From: an uncultured Clostridia bacterium
GTDB taxonomy: Bacteria; Bacillota; Clostridia; Oscillospirales; Acutalibacteraceae
Direction: 5' to 3'
Assembly (NCBI GenBank): GCA_945787805.1
Contig: CALZID010000004.1
Span: 71,712-135,711, forward strand
Length of the DNA stretch: 64,000 nt
In this document: positions 51,412 to 64,000 of the stretch, piece after piece
How the letters are laid out: every line of letters starts with the position of its first letter
Numbering within the stretch: the first letter of the stretch is position 1
Program-made: the position numbers and the translations under genes
The notes under the pieces: model-generated
Seen by the model: the letters and a program-made list of their open reading frames with translations, nothing else
Told to the model about the DNA's origin: nothing
The model's database searches: none

Positions 51412-52137
51412 TTAATTTAATAAAAGTGTACTCGCGAACATAAACTGTGCTAAATAATAAAGCGTATGATTTATTATAACATTAGCTTTCGTATTTTTGC
51501 CTTTTTCAAAATAAATTGAAGAGAGAACAAGGTCAGAAAGCACGAACGCTATTGAACCGATTGTGAGAATTAAAAATTTCTTGGAATATCCGAAAAGAAT
51601 CAGTCCGTTAACCGAGCATAGCATTGTGGCTGCAACAAAAGAAGCATAGACAAGCGATATTGCTCTGAATTCACCGAAATCAAAGTTTTTATTGAATTTT
51701 TCCATAAGTGCCGCGATGATTGTAAAAACAGCACATAAGCCTAAAATACACGGCAGCATCCACCATTTATATTCCTGAAAATTCAAAAGAATTGCGGGAA
51801 CAAAGAATGTGTGACCAATCATAAAGCAAATAAAGCCGGCATAGGTATAAGGTCTTGTACATTCCTTATGTACATATTTCAGGTCTAACCAAATATCACC
51901 CAAAAGGCTGAAAATAAAGCCTAAAAGCATTAAAATGCCATATTCGAAATTTGTTCTGTCATAACCGTTTTTTTCGATATTGTAAGCAAATGTTATAAAA
52001 GCCGTTCCGATAAAGCAAGCAGAAGCACCTGCTTTAACAAACATTGCGCCAAGTCCGCCTTTCACAACTCTTACTATTAAGAAAAATATAGTTACAATTA
52101 TGCCCAGAGTAATAATTCCGACTACCAATCCTTCCAC
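51412..52137 (-). CDS. YhhN-family membrane protein
   Basis: A 241-residue membrane protein with about eight hydrophobic segments and the YhhN/TMEM86 motifs FSLLGDIWLDL and FVLSDLVLSSIYF plus NHTLYYLAQFMF. TMEM86 proteins are lysoplasmalogenases, and plasmalogens occur in many Clostridia, so lysoplasmalogen hydrolysis is possible; bacterial YhhN function is poorly known. The start is GTG 52137 with AAGGGGGA 5 nt upstream. The frame extends 20 codons further to an ATG with no ribosome-binding site. Confidence 0.8.
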   Translation of the reverse strand: MEGLVVGIITLGIIVTIFFLIVRVVKGGLGAMFVKAGASACFIGTAFITFAYNIEKNGYDRTNFEYGILMLLGFIFSLLGDIWLDLKYVHKECTRPYTYAGFICFMIGHTFFVPAILLNFQEYKWWMLPCILGLCAVFTIIAALMEKFNKNFDFGEFRAISLVYASFVAATMLCSVNGLILFGYSKKFLILTIGSIAFVLSDLVLSSIYFEKGKNTKANVIINHTLYYLAQFMFASTLLLN

Positions 52138-52216
52138 AAAAATCCCCCTTAATTTTTCATATAAAAATATTATACCGATAATTGACAGAAATTTCAATTA
52201 TCAGTATAACCAAAAT

Positions 52217-52610: not shown

Positions 52611-53720
52611 TCATTTTTTTATAACCTCTTTTGTTTTCTCAATTTTCTTGTCTGCATAAGCCACAACATCTTTGATAACCAGTTTTTGAACAGCAGAAAT
52701 TAGCGTTTCCATATACTCATAGTTAGGTTTTCCGTTCTTTTCCGGCAACATAATATCAAGGTCGTCGGCATCTTTGGCGTAGAAATTATGCCCATAGTCA
52801 AATTTGCCTGTATGGGACGATTTGTGAATTGCCGATGTTACAAATATCGATGCTTTCATCGGTACATTTTCGGTATGAACGACTGCAATATGGTCATCGG
52901 CTCCGTATCGGTAATTTCGATATTTTGCAGAACCAAACATATCTATTGTGGTTGTGTTGGCTGAAAAAATATGTACATTGTTTCCGATGAAATCTGAAAT
53001 ACCTTCGTTTGCTTCTCCGGCTGTTACGAACGGCAGTGAACCACTGATTCTATCCGAACTTTTCAGCCTTTTACCGCGAGTTGACTTCCCAAACAGTTTT
53101 TCAAGATTATATTCTTCCCAATGGGTGTTGTTAAAATCTTTTAATGCCTGTTCTTCTTTAAAGGACAGTTGCGTATCTTTTAGTCCGGTGACTGAAAGAT
53201 ACGCCTCAAGCTCAGCCACACGCTGAGCCTCAAGCTCAGCTATAAATGACTCCATAAAACCAAAGTTAATAGAACCATTGTCAGATTCAGGTAGCATAAT
53301 AAGATTGTTTTTTATCCTTTCCCAACCTGCTTTATTTGTCCATTCATAATTACCATATACAGTTTTTGCTATACAGCTTGTAATAAACAAGTATTGGTTA
53401 TCCGTCAAAGAACAATCATTATAAACCCATTGTATTGCATATGCATCTTGCAATACTGTAAATTCATTGCTCTGGTAAAATGTTGCCCCTGTGTTTGCAC
53501 CATTTGCAGAAATAGAAATGACATTCCTTAAAACAGTAGCGCCTTCGTATGGAACATAGTTATTAAGTCCTTGATTTTCTACACCTGCAGTTAATGCCGG
53601 CAAACAGAATGTCCCTGTAGCTTTGCTTGGAAGTTCTTTTGTTTTATACTTTAAGGTGTTTACTTGAATTTTCGAGAACAATCTGTTTATCTTATATTCG
53701 CCCCACTTAACTGCCCTCAA
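52611..53720 (-). CDS. Restriction-modification specificity subunit (BcgI-like S)
   Basis: A 369-residue DNA-recognition subunit with two target-recognition domains. The first half begins with WGEYKINRLFSKI and ends with an LEAQRVAELEAYL helix; the second begins with HWEEYNLEKLFGKSTRGKR and ends in a helical IEKTKEVIKK tail. Such repeated TRD-helix halves are typical of type I and type IIB S subunits, and its length fits BcgI-type partners. The predicted start is TTG 53720, 20 bp after the stop of the fused nuclease-methylase gene; no clear ribosome-binding site was seen, so coupling is likely. Confidence 0.88.
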   Translation of the reverse strand: MRAVKWGEYKINRLFSKIQVNTLKYKTKELPSKATGTFCLPALTAGVENQGLNNYVPYEGATVLRNVISISANGANTGATFYQSNEFTVLQDAYAIQWVYNDCSLTDNQYLFITSCIAKTVYGNYEWTNKAGWERIKNNLIMLPESDNGSINFGFMESFIAELEAQRVAELEAYLSVTGLKDTQLSFKEEQALKDFNNTHWEEYNLEKLFGKSTRGKRLKSSDRISGSLPFVTAGEANEGISDFIGNNVHIFSANTTTIDMFGSAKYRNYRYGADDHIAVVHTENVPMKASIFVTSAIHKSSHTGKFDYGHNFYAKDADDLDIMLPEKNGKPNYEYMETLISAVQKLVIKDVVAYADKKIEKTKEVIKK

Positions 53721-53740
53721 CTTTTCGTTAAGTGAGGCAT

Positions 53741-55783
53741 TTATTTTCCCAGGCGGTCATCCTCTGTGTTTTGTTTTTTTAGAAGATTTGACACTTCCCA
53801 AGCAAGATAGTCACTGACCGTCTTCTTGAAATCTTCGAGCGTCGGCTTTGTATCTATCGGTGCTGTCTGATTCCAGTCTGCGCCGTTATTTGGATCGATT
53901 TTTCCCTCGTAATACTCTTTTTCGGTAAAAATATTCAGTTTTGATCTTCCGAATCTTACAAGGTCAACGAGTTCCTGATAACGCTCTTTTGCACGGTCGG
54001 TATCACGCAGATTACAACTTGCCTTTTTGCGATTTGTTCTGGTGTAACCGTCATTTGAGAAATCTATAAACTTTACAACATCGTCCTGCTGATGTGCTTC
54101 GCCGACACGGAAAACATAAACATTCGTCTGAACACTTGACTTTCCAATAAACAAGTCTATCGGCATTTTTATACTTGCAAGCAGAGTGCTGTGTTTCAGA
54201 ATCTTTTTGTTATATTCGATTGCCTTACCGCTTCCTGCTGAATTTTGAATGATAATTGCAGCATAACCTTTGCTCATCATTGACAGAGCTTTTTCAACGA
54301 ATATCATACCATTTCCGGGTGCGGAGTACGGCGGATTCAAAACGAAAGCGTCAGCAGGGAATTTTTCGTCAGTCTTTCCGAAACCGTAATTACCGTTAAA
54401 TTCTTTGAGTGAGTCCTTGTTCAAAATGTTGGAGCTGCCATCACCCATCAGAATCATATTCAGGATAGCAAGCATATAAACTTCCGAAAGGATTTCAAGA
54501 CCGAGCAACTGATTAGCTTTTATTTCGGCTGATTTCCGTAAAAATGCATCCGGAGATTTGATTTTCTCTTTGGCATCATTGAGCATTTCGTTCATAGCCG
54601 CAACAAGAAGTCCTGCAGAACCGGTTGCAAAATCCCAAACATAAGAGTCTTTGTTCACTCTTGCAAGGCGAGCCAGAAGAGTAGCGACATATGATGGTGT
54701 CAATACAACATCATTCAGCTTGTCCTGCGAAAAGCCAAGCCAGCTGTACATTTCATTGAATAGTTTTCCTGTAAAGTCGGTACTTAACCCGATTTTATAG
54801 TAAATTCCCAAATCATCAACTATTTTTGTGAACACACGCTTTAGCTGACTTTCACCATTATCCACTTTATTGATATTGTCTGTCGTCAATGTATTTTGCA
54901 AAGTTCGCACTATTAGGTCACGCTTTTCACTCGGCAAATTTTTTTCATTAAGAAATGCTTTGATTTTGCGGAGAATAATATCACCGTCACGGTTGCCTTC
55001 TTCGGTAGATGACTTTAATTCTTGCTTTTCAAGAGCTGCAACTTTTCCCGGAACGCCGAGAGAAGCAATAATTGAAGCCGCAACAAGATATACACGGTCA
55101 CGTTCGCTAAGACCTTTTTCATTCTGATAAATATCATTGTTTAGTTTTACAAGACTTGCGGTGATTTCCTGCTCTCGTTGTTCTTTGAGTTTTTCAATTT
55201 CTTCCTGCGAGAGCCGGAGTCGTTTAACTTTTTCTAAGAAACTGTCAAAATTGCTTTTTTTCAGGAAAGAAAAGTCGGTGTAATCGTCTATCTTTTGACC
55301 GATACCGAAGTTGCTCTTTGAAACATAATATACGCCTATTTCATATTCAAGCTTTTCGCTGTCATTCTTATAACCTGTCATACCGATGGCAATTATATCG
55401 GTATAACTTGTATAATGCAAAAGTGCATTTGCATAATGAACCGCACCGTTTACAGCATAAGAATTGATATTTTTGAAATCAGGCTGATTGTTTGATTTTT
55501 TATTTGCTACTTTACCTTCTGCGTCAAGCATAACGAGTTTATCTTTATAACCCTTATACTCAATCAGAATAGGGTAATCTACCATATTCTTATCTCTCAA
55601 TAGCAGTTTTGCATCCGGACGGTTACCACCGGCACCGCCGTTTTTCGAGTAATAATCATTCAATGCTTGGTCTATCTCCGTATTTAAAGATTCCTGTTCA
55701 AGTTTGTAGTCAAGTTTATATGATTTCAACCAACCATTCGCCAAATCAGCAATGATAGGTTCTACCGATTGAATTTTTGCCAT
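53741..55783 (-). CDS. Fused restriction nuclease-N6-adenine methylase (BcgI-like RM)
   Basis: A 680-residue protein. The N-terminal region has a PD-(D/E)xK nuclease-like site: P56-D57 and E75-Y76-K77 in ILIEYKG. A helical linker leads to an HsdM-type gamma N6-adenine methylase domain with SAM motif DFATGSAGLL (384-393) and catalytic NPPY (483-486). A nuclease fused to a methylase plus a separate S subunit is the BcgI (type IIB) design, which cuts on both sides of its site, rather than a type I system; no hsdR is present. GGAGG precedes ATG 55783. A classic HsdM with an inactive N-terminal domain cannot be excluded. Confidence 0.85.
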   Translation of the reverse strand: MAKIQSVEPIIADLANGWLKSYKLDYKLEQESLNTEIDQALNDYYSKNGGAGGNRPDAKLLLRDKNMVDYPILIEYKGYKDKLVMLDAEGKVANKKSNNQPDFKNINSYAVNGAVHYANALLHYTSYTDIIAIGMTGYKNDSEKLEYEIGVYYVSKSNFGIGQKIDDYTDFSFLKKSNFDSFLEKVKRLRLSQEEIEKLKEQREQEITASLVKLNNDIYQNEKGLSERDRVYLVAASIIASLGVPGKVAALEKQELKSSTEEGNRDGDIILRKIKAFLNEKNLPSEKRDLIVRTLQNTLTTDNINKVDNGESQLKRVFTKIVDDLGIYYKIGLSTDFTGKLFNEMYSWLGFSQDKLNDVVLTPSYVATLLARLARVNKDSYVWDFATGSAGLLVAAMNEMLNDAKEKIKSPDAFLRKSAEIKANQLLGLEILSEVYMLAILNMILMGDGSSNILNKDSLKEFNGNYGFGKTDEKFPADAFVLNPPYSAPGNGMIFVEKALSMMSKGYAAIIIQNSAGSGKAIEYNKKILKHSTLLASIKMPIDLFIGKSSVQTNVYVFRVGEAHQQDDVVKFIDFSNDGYTRTNRKKASCNLRDTDRAKERYQELVDLVRFGRSKLNIFTEKEYYEGKIDPNNGADWNQTAPIDTKPTLEDFKKTVSDYLAWEVSNLLKKQNTEDDRLGK

Positions 55784-56100: not shown

Positions 56101-56138
56101 AGGGGTATAGCTCAGTTGGTAGAGCAGCGGTCTCCAAA
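56101..56138 (+). pseudogene. tRNA-Trp 5' half, cut after the anticodon loop
   Basis: The 38 nt are the 5' half of tRNA-Trp: acceptor strand AGGGGTA, D-arm with AGCTCAGTTGGTAGAGC, anticodon stem GCGGT and loop CTCCAAA with anticodon CCA. The expected ACCGC and the T and acceptor 3' arms are missing; AT-rich unrelated sequence follows. With an integrase gene 250 bp downstream, this is best read as the left attachment site of an integrated element with crossover in or near GGTCTCCAAA. Confidence 0.88.
56127..56138 (+). other. Probable left attachment site core
   Basis: The tRNA match ends exactly after the anticodon loop, so the crossover core should lie within GCGGTCTCCAAA. The right site, expected to carry the tRNA-Trp 3' half, is outside this window. 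Confidence 0.6.
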
Positions 56139-56385
56139 GTCTAAAAATATCAAAAAAGTAAAAAAATTTAAATATGTCAAAAGTCTTGTAATCCCTTGTT
56201 TTTCAAGGGATTTTACTATTTTATAGCTTTTGTTGATTTAGCTATTTTTTCTTAAAACAGCTGTTTATATGAATAGTGTTTGGTACATTTCGGGTACATT
56301 TTTGGTGAAAAATGGCGTATTTGCGTTGATTTTTTCAAATTATCATGCTATATTAAATATAAGAAATATATTTGGAGGGATTAGC

Positions 56386-57525
56386 ATGTCTAACAAACGC
56401 ATACATCAGAGAAAAGACGGCAACTATTATTTCAAATTGCACGGCAAAACTTATGTTCGTGCTAAGCGTAAAGACGCAGAGAAATATTATGCCGAACTCG
56501 TATCAAACGAAAAGCGAAGAAAATTGATTGAAGACTACGGAAAAGCAGATGTCAGAACATTGATGGTTGAATGGTTAGAAATTCAACGAAGCACAGGCAA
56601 GCCATCTACTTTTGACCGTAAAGAGCAAATTGTTAACCATCAAATTATCCCCTACATCGGTAAAGAACAAGTTATTGGATTAACTTCTTCAATCATCCAG
56701 AAATGGTTAAATGACTTATCTGATGATGGTTTCAGCAAATCCACTATTAAAAAATCAAAAGAATACTTGCAGGCATCTTTGAGATTTCATAAAGTCTTAA
56801 AGAAATTCGAAGATAATCCATTTGAAGATGTAAAACTCCCCATGTCTGACGACACAAAAGAAATCGTATACTATACTGAAAAAGAATTGAAGAAAATATA
56901 TGCTGCGGCAACAAAAAAAACCGCATCAAAAGAGTACGTTTACAGACTCGGTGATGCGGTTATAGTTCTTGGACAAACTGGTATGCGTTCAGGTGAATTT
57001 TTGGCTTTAACCTGGGATGACATTGACTTTAAGAGTCAAACAATTACAATCAACAAAACAAGACAGCATGTGAAAAATCGAAGCAAAAGCAAGGCAACTG
57101 ACCCAAATTACATAGATGTTATAAACAAGCCAAAGACCAAATCAAGTATAAGGACCATTCCTATGTCAACAGACTGCAGAAAAGCATTGAAACGTCTTTA
57201 TAAACTTAATGGTGAATTCAAGTATGTGGCATCTACAGAGAAAGGAACTCCTATCTCTGTAAGAAATTTCGCAAGAATGTTCAGAGATATCCTTTATGCA
57301 GCAGAAATGGATAAAGCCGTAGACGAAAAAGGAAAGACCGTAAATAAAATTTACGGTCCTCACTCTATGCGTCATTCATTTGCTACGAATCTTATTAATA
57401 AGAAAGATGCGAATATTGCTATTGTCTCTGCCCTACTGGGTCATGCCGATGTTAGTGTTACTATTAACAAATATGTACACACAAAAGACGAAGACAAAAA
57501 GCAAACTATTAAATTGCTTGATTAA
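56386..57525 (+). CDS. Tyrosine recombinase/integrase
   Basis: A 379-residue tyrosine integrase. It has an N-terminal DNA-binding domain (HQRKDGNYYFKLHGKTYVRA), a SAM-like core-binding domain (about residues 65-165) and a catalytic domain with Arg in TGMRSGEFLALTW, HSMRHSFATNL (HxxR), LLGHADVSVTINKYVH (His and nucleophile Tyr). All catalytic residues are present. The start is ATG 56386 with GGAGGG 8 nt upstream; an in-frame ATG 39 codons earlier lacks a ribosome-binding site. Position next to the tRNA-Trp 5' half makes it the integrase of that element. The class is ICE or prophage-like. Confidence 0.95.
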   Translation: MSNKRIHQRKDGNYYFKLHGKTYVRAKRKDAEKYYAELVSNEKRRKLIEDYGKADVRTLMVEWLEIQRSTGKPSTFDRKEQIVNHQIIPYIGKEQVIGLTSSIIQKWLNDLSDDGFSKSTIKKSKEYLQASLRFHKVLKKFEDNPFEDVKLPMSDDTKEIVYYTEKELKKIYAAATKKTASKEYVYRLGDAVIVLGQTGMRSGEFLALTWDDIDFKSQTITINKTRQHVKNRSKSKATDPNYIDVINKPKTKSSIRTIPMSTDCRKALKRLYKLNGEFKYVASTEKGTPISVRNFARMFRDILYAAEMDKAVDEKGKTVNKIYGPHSMRHSFATNLINKKDANIAIVSALLGHADVSVTINKYVHTKDEDKKQTIKLLD

Positions 57526-57755
57526 AGATGGAACGTTCTGTTCTCATATCGTTTTAACCAATCATTAAGTGCAGTTCTGGTTACAAAGTACCGCGAACCT
57601 ATGACTATACTGGGAAACGCCGGGCTTTTTAGGAGGTCATAAGCCCGGCTAAGCCCACAATGCATAATTTCTTTCAACTCTTTTGCTGAAATAAGTTCGT
57701 TCTTAAGATTTTCAGGTGCACACTCTGAATTATAAACTGTTTTATTGATTTTCAT
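57522..57755 (-). CDS. Excisionase/AlpA-like DNA-binding protein
   Basis: A 77-residue protein with a MerR/AlpA-type helix-turn-helix: ISAKELKEIMHCGLSRAYDLL, then SIVIGSRYFVTRTALNDWLK, the pattern of Xis/helix-turn-helix domain family proteins that bind DNA beside tyrosine integrases. It converges on the integrase gene with a 4-bp overlap of the 3' ends. AAGGAGTGA precedes ATG 57755. It probably directs excision of the element. Confidence 0.83.
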   Translation of the reverse strand: MKINKTVYNSECAPENLKNELISAKELKEIMHCGLSRAYDLLKSPAFPSIVIGSRYFVTRTALNDWLKRYENRTFHL

Positions 57756-58357: not shown

Positions 58358-59515
58358 TTATATTGTTTCAAACTTAATATTATTTTCTTTTGCAAATTGT
58401 TCTGCGGAGCTTCCTGTATTTCCTATAATTGTAAAATTAGAACAGTTTTTAAAAGCATTCTGTGCAATCTGAACTACAGTATCTGGGATAATAATTTCTT
58501 TTAATTTACTGCAGTTTGAAAAGCAACATTCAGGTATGGCAGTAAGTCCTTTTCCGATTTTAACTTTTTTAAGGTCTTTGCATTTTGAAAAAGCATTTTC
58601 GCCAATTTCGGTTACGCTATCAGGTATTTCTATGTTGGTTAAACGCCCACAGTCATCAAAAGCACCTTTTCCGATTTTTTCAAGTGAATCAGGAAATACA
58701 ACTTTTTTTAGCGAGAGACAATAATCAAATGCCCAATCACCAATCACTTTTATGTTGCGGCCGAAAACAACCTTCTCTAATCTGCTGCAACTGCCAAAAG
58801 CAACACTTTCGATGGTTTTTACATTGTCACCCAATATAACTTTCCTTAATCCACATCCCTGAAAACAACGCTCACTAATGGCTTGTGGACCTGCAATATA
58901 AATTGCTCTTATTCCAGCATCCTCAAAAGCGCCTTTGCCAAGCTTTTTTAAACTTTGAGGTAAAATAAGATACTCCATCAACCTTTGACCGAAGCCGTGC
59001 GAATTGTTACCAAAACTTCTAAAAGCATTTTCTCCTATTTCTTCAAGCGTGCTTGGGAACTGTGAAAAGCCTTTAGAAAATTGGTCTATTTCATCGTCCG
59101 CGGAAATCTCAGCATAATAGCAAAGGTCGGGGTCTTTTACATCAAATTCAATAAGGTTTGAGCAACCTTCAAATGCTGAAACGCCAATTTTCTTTAATCC
59201 TTTTGGGAAAATGATTTTAAAAATTCCTCTGTCACCGTTTTTGAAAGCTTCTCTTCCGATTTCGGCAACGCCCTCTGGAATAAAAATAATTTCATTTGTA
59301 GCAGAGGAGTGCAAAAGCACACCTTCTTTAATTTTAAGATGCTCGCTTTTATATATTGGTTTTTGTGCTTTTGGCAATTCGTCTATTGCATACAGTTCTT
59401 GCATATCGCTCATATTCTGTAAAGTGGTCTCTTTAAATTCTTTTGCCGTTTTTACACTTCTTTTAAAATCGGTATCTATTTTTTCAAGAATCTTTTGTTC
59501 TTCGGAAATATACAT
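58358..59515 (-). CDS. Cytoplasmic BspA-type LRR protein
   Basis: A 385-residue protein with no signal peptide, lipobox or membrane segment. Residues 1-60 are a charged helical, possibly coiled-coil region (KILEKIDTDFKRSVKTAKEF). From residue ~65 it consists of LRR_5 repeats of ~23 residues, e.g. VKTIESVAFGSCSRLEKVVF and VTEIGENAFSKCKDLKKVKI. It is intracellular, unlike the exported LRR proteins at 8567 and 33177. It lies within the element beside a TIR operon on the opposite strand. Ligand unknown; a sensor role is speculative. Confidence 0.85.
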   Translation of the reverse strand: MYISEEQKILEKIDTDFKRSVKTAKEFKETTLQNMSDMQELYAIDELPKAQKPIYKSEHLKIKEGVLLHSSATNEIIFIPEGVAEIGREAFKNGDRGIFKIIFPKGLKKIGVSAFEGCSNLIEFDVKDPDLCYYAEISADDEIDQFSKGFSQFPSTLEEIGENAFRSFGNNSHGFGQRLMEYLILPQSLKKLGKGAFEDAGIRAIYIAGPQAISERCFQGCGLRKVILGDNVKTIESVAFGSCSRLEKVVFGRNIKVIGDWAFDYCLSLKKVVFPDSLEKIGKGAFDDCGRLTNIEIPDSVTEIGENAFSKCKDLKKVKIGKGLTAIPECCFSNCSKLKEIIIPDTVVQIAQNAFKNCSNFTIIGNTGSSAEQFAKENNIKFETI

Positions 59516-59796: not shown

Positions 59797-59992
59797 GCCA
59801 AACTAATTAAATATGCAAAGTGGTATTTTTTCTTAGGAATATTATACCCTTTTTTCCGAATTCGGTGAATTTGATAAAAACGCAAATTCCACTATGACGA
59901 ATTCGGTTTATACCATTTTGCATAATTAGTTTGGCGACTATCGGAGTTTGCGTTTTTTGTGCGGTTACTTCGGTAGCCGCATTTTTGTTTTT
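59797..59992 (+). promoter_or_regulatory. Structured leader with long inverted repeat and terminator
   Basis: A 26-bp inverted repeat with one 4-nt bulge (59797-59826 with 59910-59935) encloses a loop containing CCGAATTCG (59856) and CGAATTCGG (59898), which pair. The loop segment 59876-59890 can also pair over 15 bp (one G-U) with 59943-59957, outside the repeat, forming a pseudoknot or alternative fold. A terminator (59960-59968 with 59973-59981, loop TTCG, then TTTTTGTTTTT) follows directly before the ribosome-binding site of the SPFH gene. Attenuation control is likely; a MITE origin for the repeat is possible, though no target duplication is seen. Confidence 0.7.
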
Positions 59993-60008: not shown

Positions 60009-61151
60009 ATGGCAAAGATTGCTGATATTATCAAATATGAGGGTGATAATAGCACTTTTATCTGGAAGCATCCTAATGAAGATTTCAACAGTTTAACTCA
60101 ACTTATTGTCCACGAAAGCCAAGAAGCCATTTTCTTTATGAACGGACAGGCACTGGATCTGTTCGGTCCCGGTCGGCATACGCTTGAAACACAGAATATT
60201 CCTAAACTCGGCAAGGCACTAAATCGCACTACTGGCGGTGATACACCCTTCCACTGCGAAGTTTATTTTATAAACAAAACCGAGCAGATGAACATTAAAT
60301 GGGGCACTGACAGTAAGGTGCAGTATATTGAACCTACATACGGTTTCCCCATTTCTATTGGTGCATCGGGTGAAATGAGCCTTCGTGCTGAAGATAGCCG
60401 TAAATTGCTTTTGAAACTCGTTGGCACCGAGAATTTACTTGGTCAGCAAAAACTGGTCGGTTTCTTCCGCTCTTTCTTGATGACAAGAGTAAAAACATAT
60501 ATCGCCCAAGTGATGAAGGCTAATGCTATCAACATTTTTGAGATTGACGAAAATCTCACTCTATTTTCAAATTCGATTAAAAATCTGCTTGTTGCCGATT
60601 TTGCGGACTACGGTGTGTCTTTGGAACAATTCTTTGTAACTAACGTTCTAAAGCCCGATGGTGACAGACAGTACGAGAAATTTAAGGAGCTCCACTTCCG
60701 TCAGTATGCCGATATTGCCGAAGCAAAGCTTCGTCAGCAGGTCAGCGTAATTGACGCACAGACTGAAGCGCAAAAGGTTGTAATTGATTCTCAGGCGCAG
60801 GCCACCAAACGTGCACAAGAGGGTTACACCTATGCTCAAGAGCGCGGCTTTGACGTTGCAACCGAGGTTGCAAGAAATGAAGCCGTTGGCGAATTTACAA
60901 ATATGGGTGTAGGCTTTGGCACAATGGCCGGTGTCGGCGGTGCCGTTGGTGGTATGGTTGGCGGTATGATGAATGAGGCCGTAAATTCCGCTACCGCACC
61001 TGCAACACCTGTACCCCCTGCCCAGCCTGCCGATGATATGGCAACATTTAAGGCAAAGGTTGATAAACTCACAATGATGAAAGAAGCGGGGATGATTTCG
61101 GATGAAGAGTTTAACACAATGAAAGCCAAGCTGCTTTCCGAGATTATATAA
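60009..61151 (+). CDS. SPFH-domain protein with C-terminal SHOCT (YdjI-like)
   Basis: A 380-residue protein of the group often called virion-core-protein/YdjI-like SPFH. It starts with MAKIADIIKYEGDNSTFIWKH. The SPFH (band 7-like) domain covers about residues 25-230, followed by a helical coiled-coil stretch (residues ~235-285), a Gly-rich hydrophobic segment (GTMAGVGGAVGGMVGGMM), a Pro/Ala linker, and a C-terminal SHOCT domain (KVDKLTMMKEAGMISDEEFN). B. subtilis YdjI is recruited to membranes under stress with YdjG/YdjH. AGGAGGAGG precedes ATG 60009. First gene of a three-gene operon with a membrane protein and a TIR protein. Confidence 0.88.
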   Translation: MAKIADIIKYEGDNSTFIWKHPNEDFNSLTQLIVHESQEAIFFMNGQALDLFGPGRHTLETQNIPKLGKALNRTTGGDTPFHCEVYFINKTEQMNIKWGTDSKVQYIEPTYGFPISIGASGEMSLRAEDSRKLLLKLVGTENLLGQQKLVGFFRSFLMTRVKTYIAQVMKANAINIFEIDENLTLFSNSIKNLLVADFADYGVSLEQFFVTNVLKPDGDRQYEKFKELHFRQYADIAEAKLRQQVSVIDAQTEAQKVVIDSQAQATKRAQEGYTYAQERGFDVATEVARNEAVGEFTNMGVGFGTMAGVGGAVGGMVGGMMNEAVNSATAPATPVPPAQPADDMATFKAKVDKLTMMKEAGMISDEEFNTMKAKLLSEII

Positions 61152-61163
61152 GGGGTGAAGGAA

Positions 61164-61865
61164 ATGAAAAAGAATTTTAAGTTTTACATAATTATTTGGG
61201 CTATTCTTTTAGCACTTTACAACTTAACCGTTTTTCTCGTGAAGCCCATTATCCCGGGATACGTAATCAATTATGATGCTCGTTTTTGGATTTCTTGGGG
61301 TGTAATTATTGCAACCTTCATCGGTCAACTTCTTTGCTCAAAGGTTGCCTTTGATTCTAAAAATAATGAAAAACTGTTCTTGAATATTCCCCTTATAACA
61401 CAGAGCTATATAACTCTTGTTGTTGCAACGATAGCGGGCACTGCATTAATGCTTATTCCCGATTGCCCCACTTGGATTGCTGCAATCGTATGTGCTGCTG
61501 TACTTGGGCTCAGTGTTATATCTGTTATCAAAGCAAAAGTTGCCGCAGACATTGTCAGCGAAACAGACGATAAAATCAAAGCGCAGACTTCCTTTATAAA
61601 AACACTTATCGTTGATGCTGAATCGCTTATAAGCCGCGCCCAGAACGAAGCCGCAAAAGTTGCAACTAAAAAGGTTTACGACGCAGTACGCTATTCAGAC
61701 CCGATGTCTAACGACGGGCTTTCGGGAATAGAAAGCGAAATTGCAATCAAGTTCAATCAATTTGCCGGGGCAATTACTGCAAATAGCGACGACATTGCTA
61801 CGATTGCAGATGAATTGATTGTTTTAATTACCGACAGAAACAAGAGATGCAAATTATTAAAGTGA
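61164..61865 (+). CDS. Multi-pass membrane protein with cytoplasmic helical tail
   Basis: A 233-residue protein with four hydrophobic segments (about residues 9-29, 43-63, 77-97 and 103-122), then a ~110-residue soluble region with charged helical segments such as DIVSETDDKIKAQTSFIKTL. I do not recognise the family; similar proteins accompany YdjI-like SPFH genes, to my knowledge. ATG 61164 was chosen (AAGGA upstream); GTG 61155 in frame overlaps the GGGGTGA ribosome-binding site. It starts 12 bp after the SPFH stop and ends 12 bp before the TIR gene, so the operon is tight. Probably a membrane anchor or partner for its neighbours. Confidence 0.8.
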   Translation: MKKNFKFYIIIWAILLALYNLTVFLVKPIIPGYVINYDARFWISWGVIIATFIGQLLCSKVAFDSKNNEKLFLNIPLITQSYITLVVATIAGTALMLIPDCPTWIAAIVCAAVLGLSVISVIKAKVAADIVSETDDKIKAQTSFIKTLIVDAESLISRAQNEAAKVATKKVYDAVRYSDPMSNDGLSGIESEIAIKFNQFAGAITANSDDIATIADELIVLITDRNKRCKLLK

Positions 61866-61877
61866 GGAGAATAAATT

Positions 61878-64000
61878 ATGGCAGTTTTTAAATGTAAAAT
61901 GTGTGGCGGCAATCTTGAGGTTGCGGGGAGTTTAAGCGTTGCTACTTGTGAATATTGCGGCACTATCCAAACCCTTCCCAGACTCAACGACGATAAAATC
62001 GCTAACCTTTATGACCGTGCTAACCATTTTCGCCGTAGTAATGACTATGACAAGGCAATGGGAATCTACGAGCAAATTTTGAACGAGGATAGCAGCGACT
62101 CTGAGGCTTATTGGTCTTTGGTGCTTTGCCGCTATGGTATTGAATACGTTGAAGACCCTGCAACCAAAAAGCGTATTCCTACCGTAAACCGTGCGCAGTT
62201 TACTTCTATCTTCTCGGATGAAGACTATAAATCTGCATTGCAGTATGCCGATGATGAGCAGAAAGCCATTTATGAAGAAGAAGCGAAGGCGATTGACAAT
62301 ATCCAAAAGGAAATTCTCGAAATTTCAAATAACGAAGAGCCCTTTGACGTGTTTATTTGCTATAAAGAGACTGATAATAATGGTCGCCGCACACCCGATA
62401 GTGTTTTAGCAAACGATCTCTATCATCAGTTAACTGCCGAAGGCTTTAAGGTGTTCTTTGCTGCAATCACTCTTGAGGATAAATTAGGCTCTGCTTATGA
62501 GCCATATATCTTTGCTGCACTCAATAGTGCAAAAGTAATGGTCGCTCTTGGAACAAAGCCAGAATACTTCAACGCCGTATGGGTTAAAAATGAGTGGTCA
62601 AGATATCTTGCTCTTATTAAGAATGGCGAGAATAAGATGCTTATTCCTGCTTATAAGGATATGGATCCTTATGATTTGCCAGAGGAGTTTTCACATTTGC
62701 AAGCTCAAGATATGGCAAAGCTTGGCTTTATGCAAGATCTTATCAGAGGTATCAAAAAGATTTTATCTTCAACTGATGTTCCTGTTCAAAATACAACATC
62801 TGCACCAGTTCCTGAAAACCTTAATGTTAAAAAGAGCATAAAGAGAATTTTCTTATATATTGAAGATGGCAAGAATAATGAAGCTGAAGAGCTTATTGAC
62901 AAGGTAATTGATGCAGAACCTGAAAATACTAATGCTTATCTTGCAAAGCTTATTATTGAAACAAACGCAAAGACCGTTGACGGTTTGGTTGATTCTGAAA
63001 TTATTATTGCAGATTCAAAGAACCTTGACAGAGCAATTCGTTTCGCTGATGATGACTTAAAGGCAAAGCTAGTTGATATTAAAACAGAAAATACATATAG
63101 AAACGCACATAAGATTTATGATAGTGCGGCATCAGATAGCGAATACCTTGATGCAAAGAAACTGTTTGAAAAGATTCCTGAATACAAGGATTCACAGGAA
63201 TTGATTGAACAATGTAACCAAAAGAGCCAATCTGCTAAAATTGAGCAAACATATATTGATGCTTGTACTTTAGTAAATGGTGCTACAGCGGTTTCTTCTG
63301 CAAGCATTGATAAGCTTAATAAAGCTATTTCAAAGTTTGAAGAGGTTGTTGATTATCAGGATTCTGCAAAGAAAATTGATGAATGCAAGCGTAAAATTAC
63401 AGAATTGCAAACAGGCATTGAATCAAATAAGAAGAAGACAAAAACACTTGCTATTGTTGGTGGTATTGTCGCTGTTATTGTAATAGTATTTATCATTATA
63501 CTTAAGTCTGTTATCATTCCTTCTAGCAATTATAATAAGGCTATGGAAATGATGAATGCAAAAGATTATGAAGGCGCAAGAACAACATTTAGCGAAATGC
63601 TGGATTATAAAGATTCCGGCGAACAATATAAAGAGTGCACATATCAAATTGCTTGTCAGTATTTAGAAAAGAAAGATTTAGATAATTCAAATCCATTATT
63701 CGAAGAAATCAAAGATTATAAGGATTCTGCTGATAAAATCCATTATCACGATTGGAAGGAAACAAAATCGGTTGCTGCTACCTGTGATAAGGATGGCTCA
63801 AAGGATTTAGTTTGTGCTTGTGGTGAAACAAAATCAGAAAAGGTAACTGCACTTGGTCACAATTGGCAAGATGCGACCTGTACCGAACCTAAGAAGTGTA
63901 ATCGTTGCGGTGCAACCTCCGGTTCTGCATTAGGTCATACAGATGGCGTTAAGTGTGAGCGTTGTGGCGAAGTTTTGTTTAAAACACTAACATATACTGG
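61878..64000 (+). CDS. Transmembrane TIR-domain protein with zinc ribbon (partial)
   Basis: At least 707 residues, open at the window edge. Order: zinc ribbon C6-x2-C9 ... C24-x2-C27; TPR-like helical region (~40-130); TIR domain (~155-245, DVFICYKETDNNGRRTPDS start, candidate NADase Glu208 in GSAYEPYIFAAL); helical TPR-like repeats (~280-515); one transmembrane segment (524-542); a second helical region; and a Cys-rich tail from ~635 with repeats like GHNWQDATCTEPKKCNRCG. ATG 61878 has GAGGAGA upstream. The TIR should be cytoplasmic and the tail outside, or the reverse. TIR NADase effector activity is known for the family; here it is inferred. Confidence 0.87.
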   Translation, partial: MAVFKCKMCGGNLEVAGSLSVATCEYCGTIQTLPRLNDDKIANLYDRANHFRRSNDYDKAMGIYEQILNEDSSDSEAYWSLVLCRYGIEYVEDPATKKRIPTVNRAQFTSIFSDEDYKSALQYADDEQKAIYEEEAKAIDNIQKEILEISNNEEPFDVFICYKETDNNGRRTPDSVLANDLYHQLTAEGFKVFFAAITLEDKLGSAYEPYIFAALNSAKVMVALGTKPEYFNAVWVKNEWSRYLALIKNGENKMLIPAYKDMDPYDLPEEFSHLQAQDMAKLGFMQDLIRGIKKILSSTDVPVQNTTSAPVPENLNVKKSIKRIFLYIEDGKNNEAEELIDKVIDAEPENTNAYLAKLIIETNAKTVDGLVDSEIIIADSKNLDRAIRFADDDLKAKLVDIKTENTYRNAHKIYDSAASDSEYLDAKKLFEKIPEYKDSQELIEQCNQKSQSAKIEQTYIDACTLVNGATAVSSASIDKLNKAISKFEEVVDYQDSAKKIDECKRKITELQTGIESNKKKTKTLAIVGGIVAVIVIVFIIILKSVIIPSSNYNKAMEMMNAKDYEGARTTFSEMLDYKDSGEQYKECTYQIACQYLEKKDLDNSNPLFEEIKDYKDSADKIHYHDWKETKSVAATCDKDGSKDLVCACGETKSEKVTALGHNWQDATCTEPKKCNRCGATSGSALGHTDGVKCERCGEVLFKTLTYT

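Follow-up and report, generated by a model that had tools for sequence, protein, structure and literature searches.

An SPFH, membrane-protein and TIR operon in Clostridia: a possible modular, membrane-tethered TIR receptor system

A stretch of 64,000 nucleotides from an uncultured Clostridia bacterium (assembly GCA_945787805.1, contig CALZID010000004.1, positions 71,712 to 135,711 of the forward strand; this whole stretch is called the window) ends in three closely spaced genes, which encode an SPFH protein, a multi-transmembrane (multi-TM) protein and a protein with a TIR domain, here called the TIR receptor-like protein (TIRP). What is such an operon for? An earlier note, made from the letters alone, had proposed a membrane-state sensor (SPFH) coupled to a TIR effector, in keeping with abortive infection. 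In our study, the TIRP was found to combine a constant core with a variable C-terminal end, an architecture that is well supported by sequence comparison. We see about an even chance that the operon is a modular, membrane-tethered TIR receptor system, probably a defensive one, for which an anti-phage role is plausible. In function, it would be a gene set of gut bacteria that pairs an immune-type enzyme, constant and internal, with an exchangeable sensing end, predicted to lie outside, and it appears to be switchable in part of its carriers. The genes and the TIRP domains are as follows.

60009..61151, plus strand: SPFH (Band_7_1) gene with C-terminal SHOCT, 380 amino acids
61164..61865, plus strand: multi-TM membrane protein gene, 233 amino acids from ATG (an alternative GTG at 61155 gives 236 amino acids)
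61878..64000, plus strand: TIRP gene, running beyond the window (whole gene L002:7878-10280, 800 amino acids)
61893..61958, plus strand: TIRP zinc ribbon (residues 6-27), C-x2-C...C-x2-C, four cysteines invariant in 67 rows
62349..62720, plus strand: TIRP TIR_2 domain (residues 158-281, Pfam)
62592..62594, plus strand: Glu239 of the TIRP in W235-x3-E239, matched by W-x3-E of AbTIR in the alignment; candidate for the catalytic residue
63447..63503, plus strand: predicted single TM helix of the TIRP (residues 524-542), with 4 Lys/Arg before and 2 after

The three open reading frames (ORFs) lie on the plus strand with gaps of 12 bp each when the multi-TM gene starts at its ATG, and the operon was confirmed as described from the sequence. 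The SPFH protein matched Band_7_1 at 3.6e-37 and came slightly short of the SHOCT cut-off (25.2 bits against 27, Pfam), in agreement with the SPFH-SHOCT identity first given to it; the C-termini of its homologues are SHOCT or zinc ribbons, and its profile found no match among solved structures. The second protein, which carries a C-terminal tail, was rightly called a membrane protein, but its number of helices is less firm than the four first stated: about four are likely, a hydropathy threshold gave 3 in the window copy and homologues mostly have 3-5. It matched no Pfam family above cut-off; XpaC, SLATT/DUF4231 and S_4TM were rejected as identities, since each gave one weak match in one of 18 members. 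The TIRP, completed by the 2.3 kb that the contig extends beyond the window, matched TIR_2 at 1.1e-11 (45.7 bits against a cut-off of 28) and also TPR families, and with its cysteine motif it is the TIR protein with a zinc ribbon that had been proposed.

The operon was found to be patchily distributed. Within the family, 18 of 150 genomes had the TIRP (E<=1e-20); at E<=1e-5, 17 had the multi-TM protein and 31 had the SPFH protein. The TIRP core profile matched 3 of 39 genomes of the genus, 18 of 291 of the class and 2 of 398 of the phylum, the window's own genome being counted throughout. The operon is therefore accessory and not core, and the housekeeping distribution that the earlier note had set against its own proposal was not seen. 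A species-wide scan (one genome per species, 84,980 species) gave at least 537 confirmed relatives, of which the best 80, ranked by core similarity, were kept, so that counts from these loci (L067-L145) describe near relatives. This left 79 loci, and 78 were counted because gene calling missed the TIR gene of L071; L041/L093 and L006/L110 are duplicates. Most record titles of the 79 loci name Clostridia, Oscillospiraceae, Lachnospiraceae or Ruminococcus, and there are many metagenome-assembled genomes (MAGs) from animal gut or rumen among them; isolated other titles include one planctomycete MAG. Carriers not labelled as MAGs were Ruminococcaceae bacterium YRB3002, Anaerotignum sp. MSJ-24, Massilioclostridium coli and Ruminococcus flavefaciens YRD2003, the last with a TIR gene and no SPFH gene nearby. 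A phage- or plasmid-borne system was considered and rejected: 50,697 phage and 72,556 plasmid records gave 0 matches, and 2 loci were in IMG/VR.

The gene group is kept across the relatives. In 50 of the 78 loci, an SPFH gene lies no more than 5 genes away from the TIR gene; where each side of the locus spans 4 kb or more (30 loci), the SPFH gene was near in 25 and the multi-TM gene in 21. SPFH was missing from 28 of the 78 loci, many through contig ends, and from five of the 30 well-flanked ones (L072, L096, L126, L137 and L144). More than one TIR gene was present in 13 of the 78. Zinc-ribbon proteins take the place of the TIRP after the SPFH and multi-TM genes in L038, L046 and L047, and the pair would thus seem to be a platform, with the TIRP as one of its partners. 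A small protein, resembling a ribbon-helix-helix regulator by its sequence, is encoded directly before SPFH or TIRP in L042, L080, L117, L135, L142 and L163.

The constant part of the TIRP comprises the first 292 residues, with the zinc ribbon, TPR and TIR; its mean column identity was 82% over 67 rows, a figure inflated by the picking of those rows by core similarity. The C-terminal slices of largely the same TIRPs showed 5% column identity (105 of 111 slices, after four short or truncated ones and two from viral loci were dropped). Pfam assigned DUF6273 to 50 of these slices, RCC1_2 to 12, LRR_5 to 7, Flg_new to 5, Ribosomal_L12 to 3, YARHG to 2 and MORN to 1, among the top 25 of 42 families. 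Because each slice begins after the last profile match, domains closer to the TIR escape this count, and truncated ORFs are the source of some slices. DUF6273 domains of target proteins of phage diversity-generating retroelements are described as resembling the C-type lectin fold (PMC10743442). The last 102 residues of the window TIRP matched no Pfam family.

Neighbouring TIRPs of one locus illustrate the exchange of this end. The cores are 96% identical in L103 g4/g6, aligned to about residue 597, and 95% identical in L140 g2/g3, aligned to about residue 460, beyond the TM helix; in both pairs the final 290-300 residues of the first protein had no detectable counterpart in the second. L114 g8/g9 (core 89%) showed the same pattern, with the C-terminal match lost. 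L084 g7/g9 (95% core, no C-terminal match) was rejected as a swap, g7 stopping just past its TM helix. The C-terminal match was retained in 12 of 31 same-locus pairs, and C-terminal exchange appears to be frequent but not universal. Some single proteins are also of interest. The C-termini of the TIRPs at L036:541-2820 and L042:8733-10427 resemble ribosomal L7/L12 C-terminal domains on reading of the alignment, and Pfam on a subset of 22 TIRPs gave Ribosomal_L12 in 2 and EF-Tu domain 2 in 1. The protein at L061:2211-4247 is TIRP-like, with a zinc ribbon, TPR-like regions, a TM helix and no TIR, and its end is DUF6273-like by eye.

Which side of the membrane would the variable end occupy? A TM helix follows the TIR in 84 of 105 complete distinct TIRPs (a different set from the 105 slices), and exactly one was found in 77. 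Within 15 residues of the helix, Lys/Arg averaged 6.2 before it and 1.9 after it, with more before than after in 80 of the 84. The positively charged flank of a TM helix lies on the cytosolic side (the positive-inside rule), so the TIR half is likely inside and the variable C-terminus outside. At least 80 residues follow the helix in 77 of the 84. The window TIRP belongs to this class, with 258 residues after a helix that begins at residue 524.

The TIR domain is likely catalytic. Against solved structures, its profile matched bacterial TIRs best, including the 'NAD(+) hydrolase AbTIR' (3.5e-11), followed by Toll-like receptor (TLR) and plant TIRs. The earlier note had pointed to Glu208 of the TIRP as the catalytic residue. 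Glu208 and Glu239 are both invariant in the 67 rows, but AbTIR has a gap at the column of Glu208, which was therefore rejected, and it is W235-x3-E239 that aligns to the W-x3-E of AbTIR (profile alignment). The catalytic residue of AbTir is a glutamate, E208 in its own numbering (PMC10022894), and the glutamate aligned with Glu239 of the TIRP would be this one. Glu239 is thus the likely catalytic residue, in a conserved NADase-type motif, and a candidate for the catalytic glutamate whose lack had been named as a ground for doubt is present. Glu239 is also shared with the Thoeris-like TIR encoded in L081.

Upstream of SPFH, two features were noted in the window, and in several relatives a switch is indicated.

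59797..59935, no strand: segment bounded by imperfect inverted repeats; sigma-70-like match from 59869 to 59841, minus strand, directed away from SPFH
59959..59982, plus strand: terminator-like hairpin between the repeat segment and the SPFH start

In L036, L045, L047, L073 and L094, SPFH is closely preceded by the gene of a tyrosine recombinase, and inverted repeats, mostly ACATAAT...ATTATGT-like, flank the segment that separates the two genes. In L074, L133 and L146 (an IMG/VR contig), a serine recombinase and a different, GTGTAC-containing repeat were found at the same place. Since two unrelated recombinase classes occupy the same place, selection for switching is suggested. The recombinases were identified by Pfam in L036, L073, L133 and L146, in L045, L047 and L094 by our own profile, for whose construction these had partly served, and by motif in L074. 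Such inverted repeats were present in 9 of 71 SPFH upstream regions and in 2 of 194 control upstream regions, which were unmatched for intergenic length. L085 and L114 have an upstream serine-recombinase motif and no good repeats, L048 an integrase and no repeats, and L062 repeats with no recombinase found. The best sigma-70 match points away from SPFH in all eight relatives and scored better than shuffled sequences in seven (p<0.05); the test was not significant for L036 (p about 0.15). The eight relatives combine three marks of an inverton (inverted repeats, a promoter match lying between them and a neighbouring recombinase), and phase switching is well indicated in this subset. In the window, the outward match reached p about 0.02 against shuffles. 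A second copy of the window segment, 80% identical, stands before the gene of a surface-looking repeat protein in the same genome, and the segment may be a switch that is worked in trans, or else a small repeat dispersed in the genome. A terminator-like hairpin and leader similar to that at 59959-59982 were also observed at L165:4030-4090, before a repeat-protein gene at another place in the genome; shared attenuation or phase control of genes with this leader is possible.

Effector-like genes accompany some of the operons. A HEPN_RiboL-PSP ORF (E 2e-10, with a TTG start as called) lies just outside the window and overlaps the end of the TIRP gene by 14 nucleotides; a HEPN gene is likewise in or beside the operon of L123. 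SIR2_2 was above cut-off in L102 and L093 (scanned as its duplicate L041). L103 gave an AbiH/SIR2_2 match below cut-off, L079 weaker SIR2 signals and L123 a partial PDC-S21 match, the proteins of L100 and L143 cluster with the SIR2-type proteins of L093 and L102, and L081 encodes a second TIR (139 bits to PDC-S66, 85 bits to ThsB). Pfam found SIR2_2 in 4, HEPN_RiboL-PSP in 2, pEK499_p136 HEPN in 2 and AbiH in 2 of 81 cargo proteins. These were taken from 133 candidates (130 after removal of duplicates and of one with N), 80 being picked by eye, with likely housekeeping and short proteins left out, and one added by hand. Among 100 flanking control genes (100 of 130 sampled from 393), the SIR2, HEPN and AbiH families were not among the top 25 of 176, in sets that were unmatched and where single matches are possible. 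The expected proximity to defence-type genes was thus found, but in a minority of loci only.

The gene group, the constant and variable architecture, the predicted topology, the W-x3-E alignment, the repeats with their recombinases and the cargo are all read from sequence, and from them we infer a mechanism of clustering, ligand binding, NAD cleavage, promoter inversion and defence. The TIRP would be a single-pass receptor whose zinc ribbon, TPR and TIR face the cytosol while the exchangeable C-terminal domain lies outside (in a minority, a soluble C-terminus). The SPFH and multi-TM proteins may form a scaffold below the membrane that gathers TIRPs into clusters. The trigger might be a ligand bound by the outer domain, for which a tail protein of a phage, the surface of a neighbour and a lesion of the envelope are candidates, or it might be a membrane perturbation sensed by the scaffold. 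TIRs brought together would then use Glu239 to cleave nicotinamide adenine dinucleotide (NAD+), either producing a signal or depleting the pool, and the cell would be stopped; HEPN, SIR2/AbiH-like or Thoeris-like TIR genes would be optional additional effectors. At least in the subset, an invertible promoter would control the operon; its state would be OFF in the assemblies examined, and few cells would thus bear the cost. The coupling first proposed therefore holds as a gene group, but SPFH need not be the sensor, because the TIRP itself has, in most cases, the look of a receptor that crosses the membrane once and carries a variable domain outside.

Several observations weigh against this mechanism. 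When all TIRP pairs whose cores reach 85% identity are taken, irrespective of locus, 153 of 286 retain a common C-terminus. The TM helix is missing from 21 of the 105 complete TIRPs, which may be cytosolic, 7 of the 84 with a helix have a short tail, and the outside placement of the variable end rests on hydropathy and charge. Only a minority of the loci carry toxin-like cargo, and part of the scanned set was picked by hand. No such repeats were present in 62 of the 71 SPFH upstream regions; those of the window are unlike those of the relatives, with no matching invertase demonstrated next door and one further copy in the genome. The two DNA orientations were never both observed, and no promoter match toward SPFH beat the shuffles, so that the OFF state is a deduction. 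Finally, gut invertons often lie close to surface genes (PMC11892184), so a switch fits adhesion as well.

Surface sensing or adhesion is the first alternative: the lectin-like, leucine-rich repeat (LRR) and repeat domains outside would bind glycans of host or diet, or neighbouring cells, the TIR would tune metabolism, and promoter inversion would be bet-hedging between niches. The DUF6273, BspA LRR and Flg_new C-termini agree with this, as do the inverton literature just cited and the similar upstream segment before the repeat-protein gene, but it leaves the conserved NADase-type motif and the SIR2/AbiH/HEPN cargo unexplained and does not suit the TIRPs without any TM helix; we regard it as unlikely. 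An envelope-stress platform like YdjI with YdjG/YdjH, in which membrane protection falls to the SPFH and multi-TM proteins and the TIRP, without any part in defence, serves as scaffold or stress signaller, seems improbable. SPFH proteins and membrane partners do act in membrane stress of B. subtilis (PMC8581546), and the replacement of the TIRP by zinc-ribbon proteins would suit such a platform, but the accessory distribution, variable C-termini and toxin-like cargo are ill-suited to a housekeeping stress response; PspA (PF04012), moreover, had no match in the window's genome or in 12 of 13 other carriers (one of 14 positive overall), whereas 9 of 14 control genomes were positive. A cytosolic Thoeris-like system, in which the TIRP makes a cyclic ADP-ribose-type signal for an adjacent SIR2 effector and the membrane parts are incidental, is very improbable, since its support, weak ThsB and PDC-S66 profile matches and adjacent SIR2-type genes in seven loci (L079, L093, L100, L102, L103, L123 and L143, the matches in L079, L103 and L123 being weak or to candidate-system models), is met by the strong charge bias around the TM helix, by seven loci being a minority of the 116 examined for cargo (two of them duplicates) and by a ThcB4 score of 25 bits against a cut-off of 220.

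The surroundings of the operon show signs of a mobile element.

56269..57525, plus strand: tyrosine integrase near the operon, possibly part of one element with it
57522..57755, minus strand: small HTH_17 (excisionase-like) protein adjoining the integrase, E 1e-4, below the family cut-off

The integrative element proposed earlier is partly borne out by these genes, by a partial serine Recombinase domain past the window end and by a tRNA-like half, but its ends were not found and the operon is a possible member of it. The half, at 56103-56142 just upstream of the integrase, resembles, on manual reading, what is left of a tRNA-Trp on the 5' side of a break in the anticodon loop and is possibly an attachment-site remnant. 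ARAGORN called no tRNA there, and the search for an intact copy gave partial matches only, inside other tRNA genes where examined. An empty-site comparison through the gene at 51412-52197 was tried and rejected: the gene is present in 7 of 8 congeners and no neighbourhood revealed the insertion. By-eye inspection found no integrase next to the operon in two operon-bearing congeners. A BspA-type LRR protein gene (58358-59515) is the divergent neighbour of the operon, and HsdM-like and HsdS-like type I restriction-modification genes (52611-55783, minus strand), named by eye from their translations, adjoin the integrase.

To our knowledge, known bacterial TIR defence systems sense from the cytosol. 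If true, an outer recognition domain joined through a TM helix to an inner TIR would be surface receptor-type immunity in bacteria and a tractable model of TIR triggering across a membrane, and invertible-promoter control would explain the upkeep of a costly suicide-type system. Near-identical cores with different outer domains would make the hunt for ligands directly testable. The wider claim, that gut Clostridia have an analogue of TLRs, phase-switched and scaffold-clustered single-pass TIR receptors that join a fixed signalling half to interchangeable outer recognition domains, with NAD-based shutdown on contact with phage or rivals, is tentative and rather doubtful.

In comparison with known systems, no model of NCBIfam or PADLOC-DB 2.0.0 claims the operon proteins at family level, as had been supposed. 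PADLOC on the window proteins gave DrmMII on the SPFH protein (E 0.033) and no match for the others. The outcome for the TIRP differs by query, the 707-residue protein giving none and the core alone weak matches: PDC-S66 in 64 of 67 members (24 bits in the window copy) and the ThsB model PDLC00434 at E 5e-4 in the window and E<=0.001 in 10 of 67 members. By the ThcB4 score already given, the TIRP does not reach Thoeris at family level. As to a neighbouring ThsA (SIR2 with a SLOG or macro sensor), no SIR2 gene was recognised by eye among the nearby ORFs (part of them profile-scanned), the next gene being HEPN and the contig ending 2.3 kb past the window. The TIRP shares with Thoeris (ThsA/ThsB) and related systems a TIR with a catalytic-type W-x3-E, and some loci add SIR2-type genes; it differs in fusing zinc ribbon, TPR, TM helix and variable domain and in having SPFH and multi-TM partners. 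In the accessible parts of the open-licence full-text literature, a scope outside which most subscription papers fall, no description of an SPFH-TIR operon was found.

In the Bacillus subtilis pspA-ydjGHI operon, an SPFH protein is likewise encoded with membrane proteins and has zinc-ribbon partners (PMC8581546, PMC11237479). The likeness lies in the SPFH gene beside membrane-protein genes and in these partners, whereas pspA-ydjGHI has PspA, the TPM-domain YdjH and YdjG, and the present operon a multi-TM protein of no known family, the TIRP and no PspA. The window's SPFH protein is of the Band_7_1 type, to which YdjI may also belong. With the invertible promoters of gut bacteria, the likeness is in a promoter match flanked by inverted repeats and in a recombinase gene next to it; in the accessible open-access literature, including the available part of PMC11892184, no report of an inverton upstream of an SPFH-TIR operon was seen.

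AbTIR/TcpB-type bacterial TIRs are among the best solved-structure matches of the TIR profile. Such proteins are not known to be encoded in SPFH operons or to have a variable ectodomain. The TLRs of animals share with the TIRP the layout of ectodomain, TM helix and TIR across one membrane, and their TIRs are among the profile matches. The order is reversed in the TIRP, where the TIR is N-terminal, and the protein is bacterial; common ancestry of the whole receptor is not claimed. By motif count, the TIRPs of L095, L126 and L144 look like TIR-TM-LRR proteins.

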